NCBI GenBank assembly: GCA_030377965.1
Contig: JAUCGE010000008.1
Span: 1-64,000, forward strand
From: Desulfobacterales bacterium HSG16
GTDB lineage: Bacteria; Desulfobacterota; Desulfobacteria; Desulfobacterales; HSG16
Length of the DNA stretch: 64,000 bases
Direction of reading: 5' to 3'
The notes beneath the pieces are model-generated. The model was not told the DNA's origin. It did not search any database and saw only the letters and a list, made by a program, of their open reading frames with translations. Positions 1 to 12,713 of the stretch are shown piece after piece (the stretch's first letter is position 1; each line of letters starts with the position of its first letter). Position numbers and translations under genes: made by a program.

Positions 1-1205
1 TGGAAACGTATGGCAGGCTGCACAAGAGTTCCGCCCCTGGCGTGGATCGAGTGACCATTCGTGAATACGGAATGGATCTTGAAGAGAATGTCAATGATCT
101 AGTCGAGCGTTTAAAGACTGGACGATACCGGGCAAAACTTATCAGGAGGAAGAATATTCCAAAAGGGAATGGGAAAGTTCGCCCTTTAGGGATACCAGTC
201 ACAGAAGACAAGCTTTTGCAGACGGCATGCAGCGATATTCTCATGGCGATCTTTGAGCAGGATTTTCTACCCAATAGTTTTGGCTACCGACCAAAAATCG
301 GCGCATTGGATGCGGCTGAAACATTGGCTAAAGAATTACGCTTTGGGGGATACAATTACGTTGTTGAAGCTGATATAAAAGGCTATTTCAACAATATCGA
401 TCATGACTGGATGCTGGAGATGCTGAAGCAGCGTGTCGATGATAAATCGTTTCTGCGATTGATCAATAAGTGGCTGAAAGCTGGCGTACTGGAAGAAGAC
501 AAGAGCATTATGAAACCGGAATTGGGAACGCCACAGGGTGGTTCCATATCTCCTGTTTTAGCGAATGTTTATCTCCATTATGCTTTTGATTTATGGTTTC
601 AAAGAGTGGTGCCTAAACATATGCGGGGCAAAATTTTCTTTGTAAGGTATGCAGATGATTTCGTATGTCTGTTTAAATTCAAGGGAGATGCCGAAGATTT
701 TTATAAATGGCTGCCTCAACGGCTCGCTAAATTTGGACTGGAGCTATCGGCGGAAAAGACCAGGATCATCCCGTTCAATGTGTATCATATGGAAAGCAGT
801 TTTGATTTTCTGGGCTTGGAATTTCGGTGGCGTTGCAGTCGAAAAGGCAAACCGTATGTGTTCCCTCGCACTTCATTGAAGAAGATGAGGTTTGCTCTAC
901 AAGATTTTCGGCAATGGTGCAGGAAAAATCGGCATCTTGGCACAAGGAAAATTTTTGAGAGAGTCAATGCCAAGCTACGTGGACATTACGGATATTTTGG
1001 TTTTTCATGCAACTATGATCGTCTAAACCAATTTTATTATAGATCAATGATGATTCTTAAAAAGTGGTTGAACCGAAGAAGCCAGAAGCGTCAGTGTTCA
1101 TGGAAGAAATTTCGGCGAATGATGAAAGTCTTTGGTATTGAAACACCAAAAATCAGAAAGCGGATTCCACCTGTTTATAAACAGCTTGAACTTTTCTTTT
1201 GCTGA
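1..1205 (+). CDS. ltrA: Group II intron reverse transcriptase/maturase, 5' end outside window
   Basis: The reading frame is open from base 3 and its first residues already match the RT domain (SAPGVDRVT, the usual GAPGVDG block), so the true start lies upstream of the window; a GTG at 42 is internal. RT blocks in order are GNGKVRPLGIP, NSFGYRP, DIKGYFNNIDHDWM, GTPQGGSISPVLANVYLHY, the catalytic FVRYADDF, and FDFLGLEF. The C-terminal maturase (X) region is basic and ends in KQLELFF; no HNH endonuclease domain follows. Such proteins splice their own intron and copy it into DNA. The intron domain V/VI lies 23 bases downstream, as expected for an ORF in domain IV. The frame is intact, so the element could be functional. 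Confidence 0.93.
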   Translation, partial: ETYGRLHKSSAPGVDRVTIREYGMDLEENVNDLVERLKTGRYRAKLIRRKNIPKGNGKVRPLGIPVTEDKLLQTACSDILMAIFEQDFLPNSFGYRPKIGALDAAETLAKELRFGGYNYVVEADIKGYFNNIDHDWMLEMLKQRVDDKSFLRLINKWLKAGVLEEDKSIMKPELGTPQGGSISPVLANVYLHYAFDLWFQRVVPKHMRGKIFFVRYADDFVCLFKFKGDAEDFYKWLPQRLAKFGLELSAEKTRIIPFNVYHMESSFDFLGLEFRWRCSRKGKPYVFPRTSLKKMRFALQDFRQWCRKNRHLGTRKIFERVNAKLRGHYGYFGFSCNYDRLNQFYYRSMMILKKWLNRRSQKRQCSWKKFRRMMKVFGIETPKIRKRIPPVYKQLELFFC

Positions 1206-1966: not shown

Positions 1967-2410
1967 CTATTTATTCTCTGGGCTTACAATAGGATTCATC
2001 TGCCGTTTCGGATCAATTTTTTGCACCCATCGGCCTTCTTCGATAATCCAGTCGGTTGTTATCTGCCCTTTTGTTTTGCGTCCCTTGTAAGAAACCTCTT
2101 CCCTGATCGTGACCTTTGCCTGGGTCTTTGATGGCTGTATTTCAATTACTTGAATGTCATAAGCAATAAATCTCAGGCCCCTTGGTCTGTTCATAAACTG
2201 CTTTTTTGTTATGCTGTCCCGATATTCCTTGTTGTAATAATCATAAACATCATCCCAATAGCCATTGTTTCTTGCTTCAAGCATTCCCTCTACGCGTTTG
2301 CGAAGGTCATCTTCGGTATTTCTCAAATTCATCCAGGAGGCGCATCCAGAAGAAAAAAAAATTGCTGCCATTACAAAAACAGCGGGAAAGAAAATTATTA
2401 TCCGCCTCAT
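1967..2410 (-). CDS. Predicted lipoprotein, unknown function
   Basis: A 147-residue protein. Residues 1-22 form a lipoprotein signal peptide (MRR, hydrophobic core, lipobox FSSGC with Cys23), so it should be lipid-anchored in the envelope. The mature part has an alpha helix followed by a region rich in beta strands (RFIAYDIQVIEIQ, KVTIREEVSY, TTDWIIEEGRWVQKI). This resembles the cone-shaped NTF2/SnoaL-like folds, but I do not recognise a named family. Its ATG overlaps the stop of the upstream UshA-like gene in an ATGA, so the two are co-translated and probably act together. The MITE begins just beyond its stop. Confidence 0.8.
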   Translation of the reverse strand: MRRIIIFFPAVFVMAAIFFSSGCASWMNLRNTEDDLRKRVEGMLEARNNGYWDDVYDYYNKEYRDSITKKQFMNRPRGLRFIAYDIQVIEIQPSKTQAKVTIREEVSYKGRKTKGQITTDWIIEEGRWVQKIDPKRQMNPIVSPENK

Positions 2411-3651
2411 TTGCTATCCCCCCCCTGTTTTGAATTTTTGTTATATTGTTCCTGCTCTTTTTGAGGTTTCCTGGAGGATTCCTCCGGGTGTTGCTTGAGT
2501 CCTTTCATCAATTCTTCATGCTTTTTACCGAAGGCTTTTTTCCTGAGTGAATTTTTGTTATATTGTTCCCGCTCTTTTTGATATTTTTTGAAAAATTCCT
2601 CTGGGGTTTGCTTGAGTCCTTCCCTCAATTCTTCATGCATTTTATCGAAGGCTTTTTTCCTGGCCTCCTGTCGTTTATCACTCCATGTTTTCGCGACCCT
2701 GGCATTGATAATTTCTGTAATCCTTTTATTTGCAGGGACTGAATTACCCAGCTTTATCTGCTTGTTCATGGTCACTTCAATCCCGCCATTCTCTTTAATG
2801 GAGACTTGTAACTGCCCTATGTATTTACCCTGTGTCGGTATCTGAAAAACTTTTGCGGTTTCACTGATTTTGTTATCCTTACCCTCGCCCTTGTCCTTAT
2901 TGCCCTTATCCTTATCCTCGCCGTGGTCATGACAGGATGAATTGTTACCGCTTGACAAGACAATATCAATGCTTTCAAATTGTTTGCTCAAAGCAATGTT
3001 CGAATCATAATCAAGGTTGGAAAGCAGAACAACTATATCCGATTTTCCTTTTACCTGTTTCAGAACTTCGGCAAGCCCTTTTTCAGGAGATATAATTCGT
3101 ATTTTTTCATTTCTTGCATTCGCAGGAAGCTTGTCAAAACCATCTTCTGGCAGCACGCCGAGGATTGCAATCTTAATTTTTCCCACTTTTTTGATCACAT
3201 AAGGGGAGACAGAAGGGAAATCTTTGGGATCAAATTCCAGATTGCTCGATATATAAGGAAAAGAGATTTCCGAGCTTCGCTTGTCAAGATATTCGGTACC
3301 AAAAATAAAATCCATAGACCCTATATTCATAGCATCATATCTCATGATATTCATGGCTTGCAGACTGATATCAGCCCGCATCAGCTTGTCTTTACTATCA
3401 TCTGCGAATATTCCACCGCAGTCTATCAGCAGCATGGCTGGATTTGTCTGCCGAATACTCTCAATTATATTGGCTCTACGGGCAAGACCGCCCGCTGTTG
3501 CTCCGCCTCATTCTGATATTGGTCTGACTCTGCCTTGCAATTCGCCACTATATATAATGGTCAGATTTGTGGAATCTGTGGAATCTGCGGCCATCGAAAT
3601 ATTGGATACCGCTATAGTCAGGGTTAAAATAATATAAAATGCTTTTCTCAT
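2407..3651 (-). CDS. UshA-like (5'-nucleotidase/metallophosphatase fold) exported protein, predicted selenoprotein with in-frame TGA
   Basis: The start is ATG 3651, preceded by the strong site AAAGGAG. Residues 1-22 are a signal peptide (cut after SMAA). One in-frame TGA occurs at codon 48 (3508-3510); the frame is otherwise open on both sides to 2407, giving 414 residues if it is read through. Homology continues across it: LTIIYSGELQGRV before, GGLARRANIIE and LLIDCGG after, the usual order at the N terminus of UshA-like proteins. In relatives the TGA position corresponds to the second Cys of a CGC motif, five residues before GGLARR. A hairpin resembling a bacterial SECIS follows at the right distance. 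The canonical DxH metal motif is absent (YSGELQG), so phosphatase activity is doubtful. Later there is a His/Asp/Lys-rich segment (CHDHGEDKDKG) and a duplicated 39-residue helical C-terminal repeat. Starting at internal ATG 3435 would remove the signal peptide and fold start. The alternative is a nonsense mutation. Confidence 0.72.
2432..2665 (-). repeat. 117-bp tandem duplication inside the UshA-like gene
   Basis: Bases 2432-2548 and 2549-2665 are imperfect direct repeats, each encoding 39 residues built around RKKAF..KHEEL..GLKQ.PEE and ending EQYNKNS. The period is a multiple of three, so copy number can change without breaking the frame. Divergence between the copies shows the duplication is not very recent. 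Confidence 0.85.
3478..3495 (-). promoter_or_regulatory. Bacterial SECIS-like stem-loop downstream of in-frame TGA
   Basis: On the minus strand the sequence GCGGGC-GGTCTT-GCCCGT forms a six-pair stem (one G-U) with a six-base loop. The loop begins 19 bases after the TGA and starts with GG followed by U, matching the described bacterial SECIS pattern (a GG or GU at the start of the apical loop, roughly 16-37 bases from UGA). The E. coli fdhF element has a very similar apical AGGUCU. It would bind SelB with Sec-tRNA. Confidence 0.7.
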
Positions 3652-3668
3652 GACTCTCCTTTAAAAAA

Positions 3669-3767: not shown

Positions 3768-4628
3768 GTGGGCGCAAAAATACTGGTTCGAACATCTGCA
3801 AGCGAACCGATAAGCAAATTTATCAATCCAATGGGGATATGGCTTCATCTGTGGTCTTATCGCAATTTGATCAGGCAGCTAACCTGGCGGGAGGTGACAG
3901 GACGCTACAAAGGGTCTTTCATTGGCCTGGGCTGGTCATTTATCCATCCTTTGGTAATGCTTTGCGTATATACATTCGTATTTTCGACCATTTTCAAGTC
4001 CAGATGGGGGATTTTGTCTGATGAAGGAACCTCTGCATTCGCTTTTACCCTTTTTATGGGCCTGATCAGTTTTCATATTTTTGCAGAGGTCGTAAATGCA
4101 GCACCGAATTTGATTTTGGCAAACGTCAATTTTGTTAAAAAAGTGGTTTTCCCTTTGGAAATTCTTCCTGTTGTAAGTTTTTTAAGCGCATTGATCCACT
4201 CTATTTTCAGCCTGTTGATTTTATTTGCTGGCATTGTTATTTCAGGCAATTTTCTGTCCTGGACAGTGCTTTTATTGCCTGTAGTCTGGCTGCCCCTGTT
4301 TTTTACCACCCTCGGATGTGGTTTTGCTCTGGCTTCCCTTGGAGTTTTCATCCGGGATCTGTCAGCGAGTGCGGGGATAATGACAACCATACTTTTTTTT
4401 CTTACCCCAATTTTTTATCCCATTACGGCAGTTCCGGAATCTTTTAAGATAATCTGCATGTTGAACCCTCTCGCTGCTTTTGTGGAAAATGCCCGTAAAG
4501 TCGTATTGTGGGGAATGACTCCTCAATGGCAGGCATATCTTGTCGGTCTTGCCTTCTCTCTGTTTGTGTTGTCGTTGGGATTTGCATGGTTTATGAAAAG
4601 CAAATCAGCTTTTGCGGATGTCGTATAA
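3768..4628 (+). CDS. wzm: Polysaccharide ABC exporter permease (Wzm/ABC-2 type)
   Basis: Inner-membrane half of an ABC exporter that moves lipid-linked O-antigen or capsule chains to the periplasm. The N-terminal cytoplasmic helix carries the family pattern RNLIRQLTWREVTGRYKGS followed by LGWSFIHPL (about residues 33-60), then six hydrophobic segments and the LTPIFYP motif (about 218-224) typical of ABC2_membrane proteins. The start is GTG 3768 with AGAGGA upstream; ATG 3831 (MGIWLHLW) is an alternative giving a more usual length. It is followed within a few bases by its ATPase. Confidence 0.93.
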   Translation: MGAKILVRTSASEPISKFINPMGIWLHLWSYRNLIRQLTWREVTGRYKGSFIGLGWSFIHPLVMLCVYTFVFSTIFKSRWGILSDEGTSAFAFTLFMGLISFHIFAEVVNAAPNLILANVNFVKKVVFPLEILPVVSFLSALIHSIFSLLILFAGIVISGNFLSWTVLLLPVVWLPLFFTTLGCGFALASLGVFIRDLSASAGIMTTILFFLTPIFYPITAVPESFKIICMLNPLAAFVENARKVVLWGMTPQWQAYLVGLAFSLFVLSLGFAWFMKSKSAFADVV

Positions 4629-4631
4629 TTG

Positions 4632-6080
4632 ATGGTTAACGTTGAAAATGATATGAATACTGAATTTGCAGTTCGCGTCAGCCATGTGAGCAAATGCTAT
4701 CATATATATGATAAGCCAATAAACAGGTTGAAGCAGGCTTTGTTGTGGAACAGGAAAACATATCATAAAAAATTCGTAGCCCTGACCGATATTAATTTTA
4801 TGGTGAAAAAAGGAGATGCGTTAGGGATTATCGGCAAAAACGGATCAGGTAAATCCACTCTGTTACAGATCATATGCGGAACTTTGACTCCCTCTTCGGG
4901 AACAGTCGAGATTGATGGAAGAACAGGCGCTCTGCTTGAGCTTGGTTCAGGCTTCAACCCTGAGTTTACAGGAAGGGAAAATGTATTCGTCAACGGTGCT
5001 GTCATTGGACTTGCAACTCATGAAATAGAGGAGAAATTTGATGAAATAGCGGCTTTTGCTGATATCGGCCAGTATCTGGAACAGCCGGTAAAAACTTATT
5101 CAAGTGGAATGCTTGTCAGGCTGGCCTTTGCTGTTCAAACGGTTGTGGAACCCGATATCTTGATTGTGGATGAAGCCCTGAGCGTGGGAGATATTTTTTT
5201 CGCGCAAAAATGTGCAAAGCGGATGCAGGTATTGCGAGAGAACGGAACTTCTTTGCTTTTTGTTTCCCATGACATGGCAAGCGTTCGAGATTTATGTAAA
5301 AATGCTGTATTGCTATACAAAGGACAAGCCCTTTTTAACGGCCCTGCACAAGACGCTATTATCAGGTACTATAAGACAGACCCAAATTACATACCAAAAA
5401 ATGAGAAAAAATGGGAAGACTGCCCAAAAATTGATCAGATAAAAGAAAATCCGAAAGGAGGAGCGGAAGAAAACGACAATCATTTTCATGAAATGGAAAA
5501 ACAGGCTGTCTGGCATTGTCCTGTAATTGATAACGAAGACCGGAATCGGAAAAAAGCAGAAATTATAGCTGTGGATATCCGTGATCAGGATAACCATCAA
5601 ACCTTTGATTGCATACTGGGCAGAAAGCTGAAATTTACAGTGTTATACAGAGTGTTTATGGAAGACCCTGTGCATATAGCCCTGACAGTCAAAAATCGTT
5701 ATGACCAGACCGTGTTTTCCAGCGGATCATACAACCAGCGGATTGACCCGCCCCTGCTTGGGATAGGAAAACAAGCCATTTTCAAAATGGATATAGCGAT
5801 GATGCTGGAAGGAGGACAATATACGATAAGTATTGCACTTGGCTTAATTGGAGCCAAGAGTACTCTGGTGGAAAAGTTGGATGAAACCCCTCAACTTGGG
5901 CCTTTGCAGGTGATATGGAATTATGAAGAAGAAAAAGCGCCCTTTTTCGGGATGTTCGGCCTGCCGTTTTCTGCCAGTTTTTGTACGCCAGATAATGCTT
6001 TTCTCGGTTTTGATGTGGTATCCACCGACAGGTTTGGAGACGATTTTAAGTCGGAAAAAAAATGTCCTGCATCTATATAG
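4632..6080 (+). CDS. wzt: Polysaccharide ABC exporter ATPase with C-terminal glycan-binding domain (Wzt)
   Basis: Energises export through the adjacent permease. Walker A GKNGSGKST, the Q-region, signature YSSGMLVRLAFA, Walker B DILIVDEAL and switch His (FVSHD) are all present in the first 230 residues, in the short form typical of Wzt/TagH. After a charged linker the last about 160 residues (from AEIIAVDIRDQ) look like the Wzt C-terminal beta-sandwich, which in studied cases recognises the modified non-reducing end of the glycan and so couples chain termination to export. A terminal modification such as the sulfotransferase or acyltransferase encoded next door could be the signal (inference). 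A TTG at 4629 is also in frame; ATG 4632 was chosen. Confidence 0.93.
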   Translation: MVNVENDMNTEFAVRVSHVSKCYHIYDKPINRLKQALLWNRKTYHKKFVALTDINFMVKKGDALGIIGKNGSGKSTLLQIICGTLTPSSGTVEIDGRTGALLELGSGFNPEFTGRENVFVNGAVIGLATHEIEEKFDEIAAFADIGQYLEQPVKTYSSGMLVRLAFAVQTVVEPDILIVDEALSVGDIFFAQKCAKRMQVLRENGTSLLFVSHDMASVRDLCKNAVLLYKGQALFNGPAQDAIIRYYKTDPNYIPKNEKKWEDCPKIDQIKENPKGGAEENDNHFHEMEKQAVWHCPVIDNEDRNRKKAEIIAVDIRDQDNHQTFDCILGRKLKFTVLYRVFMEDPVHIALTVKNRYDQTVFSSGSYNQRIDPPLLGIGKQAIFKMDIAMMLEGGQYTISIALGLIGAKSTLVEKLDETPQLGPLQVIWNYEEEKAPFFGMFGLPFSASFCTPDNAFLGFDVVSTDRFGDDFKSEKKCPASI

Positions 6081-9610: not shown

Positions 9611-11764
9611 ATGAAAAAATCAGTTTCCATTACAAATGACCATATGAAGTCGGCCTTGCTCTTCGCTGTTCTACTTTCCATACAATGGCTTTTGTTCAAA
9701 CAATATGCATACCGGGAAATTCTTTGGGGATATCCTGATTTTTCAGATCAGAGTGCATACCTGTCCAGAGCATTCAGCCTGTATGACATGATTTTGCACA
9801 AAGGACTGTTCAATGCTTTGGAATGGGATTTCTTCAAAGCCAGAGGTACAGGTTCTTTTCTTCATTTGCACGGAGCGTTTTCCTTTTTATTGAACGGGCC
9901 AGACAGATTCAATGCCATTACATTAAATTTTTTGTATTATGCCCTGTTTCAGGCAATGCTCATCTATGTTGTGTATTTTTTCAGTCGCTCCAAAAAAGTA
10001 GCATTCATTTCTCTTGGTATTTTAATAGCGTCTGTATTTCCTTTCAATTATGCAGGTGGATATCATGATTTCAGAATCGATTTCATTTCCTTTTGTCTGT
10101 TTGGAATTTTTCTATTATCAGGACTTCGTTCCGATGTTTTTATGGATAAAAAATGGTCGGTTGTCACCGGTGTGGTCGGAGCTTACCTCTTCATGTTTCG
10201 CCACAACACTATTGTCTATCTGACCGGAATATATTTACTGACCGGTGCGGGAATTATCCTGCTGGAATTTTTTCGGGCAAAAACCATTCGGACAATACAT
10301 CAAAGCAAAAGGTTTATTGGCTTTCTTATGTCTGGTGTCACATATATAATACTGGTTTTGCCTTTTCTTTGGGTCAGCTTCAACGCCATTGCTTCATATT
10401 ATCTTTCTCAGAGCATGAATCGAAGTGCGATCCGAAAGGCTCAACTGGGCATTGAAACTGTGTGGGAATCTATGGCGTTTTACCCGATTCAACTGCTGAT
10501 AAACCATCTGGGGCTGTGTGCGTTAACGCTTGCCGTCTTGTGTATATGCCTGCTGGGCGCTGTAACGTTGTTTTACATGGGGAAACGACAGGTTGCTTTG
10601 GAAGGCGAAGATAGCTCAAACCATATAAAGATATCATATTGGTATGCGTACAGCTTTATCCTGATCTGTTTTTTAGTTCCATTATGCGTGTTGACATTCA
10701 ATGCGTCCAAGTCCCCGGTTGTCGGAGGTATTTTATATCCTTCCCTGCTGGCAGTATTTGTTGTAACCATCTTATATATATATTCATATTCCACCTCATG
10801 TTCGATACATGTATCTGAAAAAATGAGATACATGACATCGTTGCTTGTTGTGATTTCGCTGTTTACAGGTATCTGGATACATGCGGCAGCGTTGACGAGA
10901 CCAGGTTTTCTGTCCAGGGATCGGGAACGAGTTGAGGGGATCGTCAATATGCATCTTGAAATGGGTCGGTTTGCGGCTCGGATGGGCTTGGTCTTTCCCA
11001 CGATTCTGTTCGACACAATTCGAGATGACCTGGCTCCGAGGATTGCAACAACTCTACTATATGAGCAGGACAAAAAACTGGTGGTTTTTTCCAATGTCGG
11101 AAGGACGGGACAGATTTTTTCCAAAGCGGAGGCAAAAATCATGGATGAACTGAGCAAAACGGATTTCATGCTGCTTAGGGAAGGCCCCAAGCTTTGTTAC
11201 GGTTTTGACATCTTACCGTATAATCGGTTGATGGAAAAACTACGGCCGAAGCTGAAAGCCTATGCAAAAGAAAAAATGATGTTTCTCAAAAAATGGCGGA
11301 TCGAAAATCATACCTTTGAGTTATATGCAACCTGGCAGATCCAGTTGAAAAAAGAAAAAAACCTGTTTGGAGACTCCGGCGGCTGGATTACTCATGAAGG
11401 GTTTTCGGCTATGATTCCGGCAGATATTTTAATGCACAGACCCATAATGCGTTTTGAAGGCGATATTCATAAGGAACCATTCAAAGGAAATTTTCCAGCG
11501 GCCAAAGCAAAAATTCGATATCAAGAAAGCGAATTGTTCAAAACAGTTCCATCATCACTGCTTGTAAAGGAAAATCGTTATGAATTGTTGATAGATGTAT
11601 CTGAATTCAAAATTTCAGATGATCAGAAAACTTGTGAAATCAAAATCGAATTCGACAAATATTTCATTCCAGCAGAACTTGGTATCAATTCAGATACAAG
11701 AAAACTGGTGGTTCAAACGCCTGAAAATCTTCAGCTAACACCAATAACAACAAAAGAAAAATAA
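9611..11764 (+). CDS. Polytopic membrane protein, probable GT-C-type glycosyltransferase
   Basis: A 717-residue protein. Residues 1-450 hold about ten to twelve hydrophobic segments, and the last 250 residues form a soluble, probably periplasmic domain. An acidic motif sits in the first loop (WGYPDFSDQSAYLSRA), where GT-C enzymes using polyprenyl-phosphate sugars carry catalytic Asp residues. It lies next to a polyprenyl-phosphate glycosyltransferase and a UPF0104 protein, the usual company of GT-C enzymes. No family was recognised with certainty; an O-antigen ligase or polymerase role cannot be excluded. Confidence 0.7.
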   Translation: MKKSVSITNDHMKSALLFAVLLSIQWLLFKQYAYREILWGYPDFSDQSAYLSRAFSLYDMILHKGLFNALEWDFFKARGTGSFLHLHGAFSFLLNGPDRFNAITLNFLYYALFQAMLIYVVYFFSRSKKVAFISLGILIASVFPFNYAGGYHDFRIDFISFCLFGIFLLSGLRSDVFMDKKWSVVTGVVGAYLFMFRHNTIVYLTGIYLLTGAGIILLEFFRAKTIRTIHQSKRFIGFLMSGVTYIILVLPFLWVSFNAIASYYLSQSMNRSAIRKAQLGIETVWESMAFYPIQLLINHLGLCALTLAVLCICLLGAVTLFYMGKRQVALEGEDSSNHIKISYWYAYSFILICFLVPLCVLTFNASKSPVVGGILYPSLLAVFVVTILYIYSYSTSCSIHVSEKMRYMTSLLVVISLFTGIWIHAAALTRPGFLSRDRERVEGIVNMHLEMGRFAARMGLVFPTILFDTIRDDLAPRIATTLLYEQDKKLVVFSNVGRTGQIFSKAEAKIMDELSKTDFMLLREGPKLCYGFDILPYNRLMEKLRPKLKAYAKEKMMFLKKWRIENHTFELYATWQIQLKKEKNLFGDSGGWITHEGFSAMIPADILMHRPIMRFEGDIHKEPFKGNFPAAKAKIRYQESELFKTVPSSLLVKENRYELLIDVSEFKISDDQKTCEIKIEFDKYFIPAELGINSDTRKLVVQTPENLQLTPITTKEK

Positions 11765-11771
11765 AATAAAT

Positions 11772-12713
11772 ATGGATATATCTTTTGTCATACCGGCTTA
11801 TAACGAAGAAGAGAGCATTGGTATTCTTCATGGAAAAATTTCGGAAACAATGAAATCAGTGACCGAACGATATGAAATTCTGTTCGTGGATGATGGCAGT
11901 ACAGATGCCACTTATAAACGAATGAAAGAAATCAGTGAACACGACGATCGTGTTCGAGTGCTGAAGTTCAGACGGAATTTTGGGAAATCAGTGGCCCTGG
12001 ACGAGGCTTTCCGCCGGGTTTCCGGGGAAATTGTTTTCACTATGGATGCTGATCTGCAAGATGACCCGAATGAAATCCCCCGGTTCATCGAAAAAATAGA
12101 GCAAGGGTATGATTTGGTTTCCGGATGGAAACAGAAGCGAAAAGATCCCGTATTCAGCAAAAACCTACCATCCAAACTCTTCAATTTCATGATAGGAGTG
12201 GTTTCAGGCCTTCGGCTGCATGATTACAATTGTGGGTTTAAAGCCTACCGCAGAACGGTCGTAAACCGAATTTCTCTGTATGGAGAGCTTCATCGGTATG
12301 TACCTGCCATTGCACACTCATCCGGCTTTCAGGTGACAGAAATACCGGTTCGACACCATTCCAGACCTTATGGTACATCCAAATTTGGAATCAGCCGTTT
12401 TTACAGGGGTTTTTATGATTTTATCACCGTTGTTTTTCTGACCAGGTATCTGAAACGGCCTATGCATCTGTTTGGGGGAATCGGCCTTTTGTTTTCCACA
12501 ACGGGCTTTCTGACTTGTTTCTATCTCACCATTCTCTGGTTCGGAGGGGAAAGCATCGGAAGCCGACCATTGTTGATTCTCGGTGTGATGCTGATGCTGA
12601 TCGGGATACAATTCATATCCACCGGGCTGGTTGCCGAGATGATCACATATGGGAGGCAACAGAAAAGCCGCGAAGATCTTGTGGAAAAATATCTGAATGG
12701 AAAAAATGAATGA
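11772..12713 (+). CDS. Polyprenyl-phosphate glycosyltransferase (DPM1/GtrB-like GT2)
   Basis: Transfers a sugar from a nucleotide donor to undecaprenyl phosphate at the cytoplasmic face. GT2 motifs are FVIPAYNEEESI, LFVDDGSTDAT, LKFRRNFGKSVALDEAF and FTMDADLQDDP (the metal-binding DAD/DLQDDP). The acceptor-side motif YNCGFKAYRR and HHSRPYGTSKFG follow, and two transmembrane helices sit at the C terminus (about 232-292), as in GtrB and ArnC. The lipid-linked sugar could feed the GT-C-like protein just upstream. Confidence 0.93.
   Translation: MDISFVIPAYNEEESIGILHGKISETMKSVTERYEILFVDDGSTDATYKRMKEISEHDDRVRVLKFRRNFGKSVALDEAFRRVSGEIVFTMDADLQDDPNEIPRFIEKIEQGYDLVSGWKQKRKDPVFSKNLPSKLFNFMIGVVSGLRLHDYNCGFKAYRRTVVNRISLYGELHRYVPAIAHSSGFQVTEIPVRHHSRPYGTSKFGISRFYRGFYDFITVVFLTRYLKRPMHLFGGIGLLFSTTGFLTCFYLTILWFGGESIGSRPLLILGVMLMLIGIQFISTGLVAEMITYGRQQKSREDLVEKYLNGKNE

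Follow-up and report, generated by a model that had tools for sequence, protein, structure and literature searches.

A UshA-like gene with an in-frame TGA from a Desulfobacterales bacterium, predicted to encode an exported lone-selenocysteine protein beside an NTF2-fold lipoprotein

Is a gene that appears to be broken by a stop codon dead, or is its stop read as selenocysteine (Sec)? The question is raised by a minus-strand UshA-like gene in the window analyzed here, a 64,000-nucleotide stretch of contig JAUCGE010000008.1 from Desulfobacterales bacterium HSG16. The frame opened by ATG 3651 closes at TGA 2407-2409, and its sole interruption is the TGA at 3508-3510 (codon 48). An AAAGGAG motif lies upstream of this ATG, the N-terminus, MRKAFYIILTLTIAVSNISMA, is signal-peptide-like by inspection, and the product reads MRKAFYIILTLTIAVSNISMA...LTIIYSGELQGRVRPISEUGGATAGGLARRANIIE... 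when the TGA is translated as Sec. The ORF from an internal ATG at 3435 encodes 342 aa and has no signal peptide. The initial annotation, made from the nucleotide sequence alone, had described the start with its ribosome-binding site and signal peptide, the single interruption and the signal-less internal product, and our reading of the sequence and its translation agreed with it on all three. We put the probability at roughly 93% that 3651-2407 is an intact gene for an exported protein with Sec decoded at UGA codon 48; the gene that looks stop-broken is almost certainly intact because the stop codon inserts Sec. Coordinates are collected in Table 1.

Table 1. Features of the UshA-like locus and its surroundings in the window
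Feature	Position	Strand	Remarks
UshA-like selenoprotein gene (predicted)	2407..3651	(-)	414 aa, Sec at codon 48
Predicted signal peptide of the UshA-like selenoprotein	residues about 1-21		
Metallophosphoesterase-fold domain of the UshA-like selenoprotein (predicted)	residues about 28-328		
Charged helical C-terminus of the UshA-like selenoprotein (predicted)	residues about 309-409		
In-frame TGA, probably read as Sec48	3508..3510	(-)	TGA or Cys at this column in 33/33 aligned homologues
Ribosome-binding site AAAGGAG	3656..3662	(-)	Direct reading of the sequence
SECIS-like hairpin	3478..3495	(-)	Stem GCGGGC/GCCCGT, apical loop GGUCUU at +19 after UGA; overlaps the A-GGLAR codons
Partner gene, 147-aa predicted lipoprotein (SSGC lipobox), NTF2-like fold	1967..2410	(-)	ATGA overlap with the stop of the selenoprotein gene
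Wzm (ABC2_membrane) and Wzt (ABC_tran + Wzt_C) polysaccharide exporter genes	3768..6080	(+)	Divergent, recurrent neighbor
Group II intron, left contig edge	1-1300	(+)	Reverse transcriptase ORF 42-1205 (PF00078); Rfam RF00029 at 1226-1300

Selenoprotein families are classically recognized by exchange between Sec and Cys, and the initial annotation had predicted that homologues would carry either Cys or another TGA at codon 48. Homologues drawn from genomes of the same order and class and from GTDB contigs behaved in this way: with Sec typed as Cys in the alignment, and in a region near Sec that is short and gapped, the column held TGA in 25 of 33 homologues and Cys in the other 8, sharing about 20-38% of residues with the window protein. 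Many of them, read through the TGA, have one TGA, and it falls at the aligned position. TGA-bearing examples are PVRGUGGKTSGGLAR, PVHGUGGKKTSGGLAR, PIPQUGGKTAGGLAR and PCHSUGSKYSGGLAR; Cys-bearing ones are TVLQCNKEMWGGLPR, SIRCCGGRLSGGLAR and PIPTCGGRNMGGMAR. On a maximum-likelihood tree the Cys label changed at least seven times, each change being forced by well-supported branches. A search of genome contigs with the single window protein found no relative, and neither did a search of viral contigs with the alignment.

The nearby partner Cys was absent from 13 of the 25 Sec proteins, including the window protein, and its label required at least five forced changes on the tree. Sec had been proposed to replace the second Cys of the CGC motif seen in relatives, which the 33-sequence alignment supports (PCGC) and a 10-sequence alignment does not, placing it at the first Cys; we dropped the latter assignment for the former, with some doubt left by gap placement. 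Two CxU-type UshA-like genes with in-frame TGA also occur together in a locus of candidate division TA06 (L095, about 1140-2087 and 4893-5555).

Downstream of the TGA, the predicted hairpin consists of GCGGGC (3495-3490), GGTCTT and GCCCGT (3483-3478), with a G-U outermost pair. Its loop begins GGTCT at +19, just where the initial annotation had placed a GGU loop. Folding gave a split answer, as the hairpin is stable alone (3498-3476; -11.7 kcal/mol, z -3.0) but reaches only z -0.6 in a 50-nt context. Because the hairpin overlaps the GGLAR codons, the protein constraint had to be removed from the test, and we compared each hairpin with recodings in which synonymous codons were drawn by each gene's own codon usage. 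Against this null the window hairpin was not unusual (z -1.0, p 0.15), because of its overlap with the conserved GGLAR codons. The evidence for its significance is instead the comparison across homologues together with codons fixed against usage. Mean z against recodings was -1.39 for TGA genes (n=28) vs -0.05 for Cys genes (n=11; Mann-Whitney p 0.0002); among 19 close TGA genes the hairpin codons were GGC in 18, GGT in 17, CTG/CTT in 18, GCC in 18 and CGN in 18 (binomial p 1e-10 to 2e-4 against usage), so that GGC, GGT and GCC are fixed in 17-18 of 19 at codons with 20-34% usage; and the core GGCGGTCTKGC was present in 17 of these 19 vs 3 of 11 Cys genes (Fisher p 0.001), all of these p-values counting related sequences as independent and thereby overstating the strength. 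Across 17 gap-free sequences, 99% of cells were paired, two pairs contained 4 cells changed on both sides vs 0.7 in shuffles, and covariation was 0.213 vs 0.089 when shuffled. An Rfam search of the hairpin returned no family match.

The checks proposed in the initial annotation and run here all favored Sec, with the exception of selB. For the decoding genes that it had named (selA, selB, selC and selD), the outcome was mixed. The host has a tRNA-Sec (77.2 bits; ARAGORN anticodon TCA) and a selA at a contig edge (583.7 bits), but family searches found neither selB nor selD in the host assembly, which is 80% complete. Judged by eye, the host's best matches to the selB model have frame lengths suggestive of EF-Tu, IF-2 and LepA, and its best selD match is in an ORF of 568 aa that begins like a HAD-type hydrolase. 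Loss of selB at the selA contig edge was considered and rejected, as selB does not lie beside selA in relatives. Among the 17 homologue-bearing genomes, 14 had a selB over the cut-off. Two genomes, G032 (91% complete) and G184 (87%), have a TGA-bearing UshA-like gene and no selB over the search threshold. As a control for Sec decoding, we turned to formate dehydrogenase alpha-type (FdhA, molybdopterin), an enzyme unrelated to the UshA-like protein: both host FdhA genes, L144 and L147, have TGA at the canonical Sec site (ARLUHSSTVAGLA and ARIUHSATVAALA), and in L144 the TGA is followed by a GGTCT loop at +19, like that of the UshA-like gene.

Three ways of explaining the TGA without Sec were weighed against these results. 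It might be a sequencing error, or a real stop in a dead pseudogene, since a point change of TGC or TGT to TGA in a single metagenome assembly would look alike, and selB was not found in this 80%-complete assembly; yet the same TGA stands in 24 other homologues, mostly from different genera and assemblies, and the hairpin downstream is conserved, coding is intact on both sides and Sec machinery is present, which makes an error or a dead gene very unlikely. Reassignment of UGA in the host to another residue, such as Trp or Gly, would likewise produce a lone in-frame TGA, which by itself cannot separate recoding from reassignment. Against it, TGA at 2407-2409 is the gene's own stop, and close homologues in L051 and L054 also end in TGA; homologues that do not have TGA at the Sec column have Cys there, never Trp or Gly; and a tRNA-Sec with anticodon TCA is present. 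We give reassignment next to no chance. The stop might also divide the region into two products: a short peptide of 47 residues that is secreted, and a 342-aa protein that starts at ATG 3435, where the ORF is indeed open, and stays in the cytoplasm. The 342-aa protein would have no signal peptide and no first strand, and would miss the conserved Sec/Cys and GGLAR motif; homologues keep all of these in frame, and the frame is continuous in Cys homologues, so that two products seem extremely improbable.

In structure comparison, the AlphaFold model of the UshA-like protein (pLDDT 87.6) aligned with 5'-nucleotidases and SoxB over their N-terminal domain, at Z 33 to 28 (2z1a, Z 33.2). By predicted structure it has the N-terminal metallophosphoesterase fold in common with UshA, CD73 and SoxB, and differs from them in carrying a putative Sec, in having most metal ligands replaced and in lacking the C-terminal nucleotidase domain. 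We take CD73 Asp36, His38, Asp85, Asn117, His220 and His243 to be metal ligands and His118 to be catalytic. In alignments read by eye, His38, Asn117 and His220 correspond to Gln39, Ser112 and Asn212 of the window protein, His243 to a non-His residue and His118 to Met113, while Asp85 is kept as Asp77 and Asp36 is conservatively replaced by Glu37. The C-terminus is modeled as charged helices and not as a nucleotidase domain, and a Pfam scan of the protein gave no nucleotidase match and only weak matches to the charged helices. The combination of dinuclear metal ligands and C-terminal substrate domain that marks a functional 5'-nucleotidase is lacking.

These features bear on what the predicted Sec might do. 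The protein might still be a metal-dependent enzyme with Sec as a metal ligand and not as a redox or nucleophilic centre, as suggested by the 5'-nucleotidase fold, by Asp77 and Glu37, and by the precedent of formate dehydrogenase, where a lone Sec without a partner Cys is a metal ligand. The equivalents of CD73 His38, Asn117, His118, His220 and His243 are replaced, though (by eye), and the CxxU and CxU relatives suggest redox pairs, so we hold a metal-ligand role to be improbable. From the loss of ligands, Sec48 may instead work by itself, as a nucleophilic selenol or a redox centre.

Among NCBIfam models, the nearest to the window protein was NF041198 at 161.6 bits (E 2.5e-47; cut-off 275), followed by NF049981 at 66.8 bits (cut-off 140). 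NF041198, the UshA-like (seleno)protein family UshA_like_PCGU, appears in ocean metagenome reports as COG0737 UshA-like (PMC2398784; PMC13188914), and NF041198 and NF049981 are described as CxU and CxxU selenoproteins, respectively (PMC2398784, PMC13188914). With NF041198 the window protein has in common the exported UshA-superfamily domain and a Sec/Cys at the aligned column followed by GGLAR. It differs in having PISEU where that family has the CxU motif (PCGU/PCGC), so that the first Cys is absent, and in one extra residue on each side of Sec; its hairpin also coincides with the GGLAR codons, and the predicted fold of the CxU genes analyzed here is further 3'. As for NF049981 (UshA_like_Sel_2, family 2), the window protein has the same Sec-GGLAR spacing as our CxxU relatives (PCYTU, PCHSU), but the CxxU motif is absent from it, with Ile45 at the Cys position. 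All 20 of the 20 relatives scanned fell below the cut-offs of both models, which places the branch outside current annotation models; the PCGU-bearing P0008 was also under the NF041198 cut-off, at 156 bits. UshA-like selenoproteins are thus already known as a kind, and the window protein, as predicted from its sequence, is a lone-Sec variant in an unnamed branch. The known family, the absent partner Cys and the conserved partner gene had gone unmentioned in the initial annotation.

Pfam and NCBIfam searches of that partner gene returned no family. Its product has a predicted NTF2-like fold (pLDDT 84.5; structure matches with Z up to 12.4). By hand tally from the neighborhood listing, the UGG/CxxU-type loci with room number 23, and in 21 of them a partner homologue follows immediately downstream on the same strand; partner homologues are convergent in two CxU loci and stand beside none of 69 other UshA-superfamily hits. 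One locus, L052, carries the partner fused to a Cys-type UshA-like protein (224-1654). What is new here is this unnamed gene of predicted NTF2 fold and its conserved pairing with the putative selenoprotein gene.

The wider neighborhood also recurs. Clustering of neighboring ORFs from 22 loci, the window included, showed that 14 loci encode an exported protein of roughly 800 aa matching transglutaminase elicitor, 11 have Wzm, 9 have Wzt and 6 have a CAP-domain protein. Further exported families recur as well. Loci L156-L167, L057 and L169 also contain two unnamed exported families, a TonB-type barrel and WbsX-type glycosyltransferase genes. L157, a locus with a lone-Sec UshA-like gene, also encodes an exported rhodanese-like-domain protein (10325-12007) that falls in the cluster of the transglutaminase-like family. 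The window contig starts within a group II intron, so assembly may have split off the left part of the locus; exported c4-c5-c1 genes, which belong to the recurrent locus, are found on C236, a 5.2-kb contig of the same genome, and this contig may lie to the left of the window across the intron.

We propose that UGA codon 48 would be decoded as Sec by SelA, SelB and tRNA-Sec, presumably in a SelB-dependent manner, with the hairpin that spans +13 to +30 from the UGA, within the GGLAR codons, as the probable decoding signal. The protein would then be exported to the periplasm, having apparently kept the UshA/SoxB/5'-nucleotidase N-terminal fold while losing its C-terminal nucleotidase domain and the majority of its metal ligands. 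The CxxU partner Cys, three residues before Sec, would correspond to Ile45. Judging from gene neighborhood, the selenoprotein and the NTF2-fold lipoprotein may act together in cell-surface assembly or modification, a surface role suggested because the neighbors are a polysaccharide exporter and exported transglutaminase-like proteins. As a specific biochemical role, a one-selenol centre acting with the lipoprotein at the cell surface can be offered only tentatively.

Automatic annotation would yield a truncated cytoplasmic protein from this gene and, as neither NCBIfam model reaches its cut-off, a whole branch of exported selenoproteins has likely been missed. CxU, CxxU, lone-U and Cys versions occur on the same fold and are directly comparable, and the family's function becomes testable through three features: a Sec that stands alone, a metal site that has degenerated and a lipoprotein partner that is conserved. 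Speculatively, and with the odds against it, the selenoprotein and the lipoprotein might serve anaerobic bacteria as a periplasmic unit devoted to a large locus for surface assembly, one that contains a polysaccharide exporter together with transglutaminase-like and CAP-domain proteins that are exported. On that reading, a nucleotidase fold that once depended on metal would have become an enzyme working with one selenol, and its resolving Cys would have been lost or gained repeatedly.
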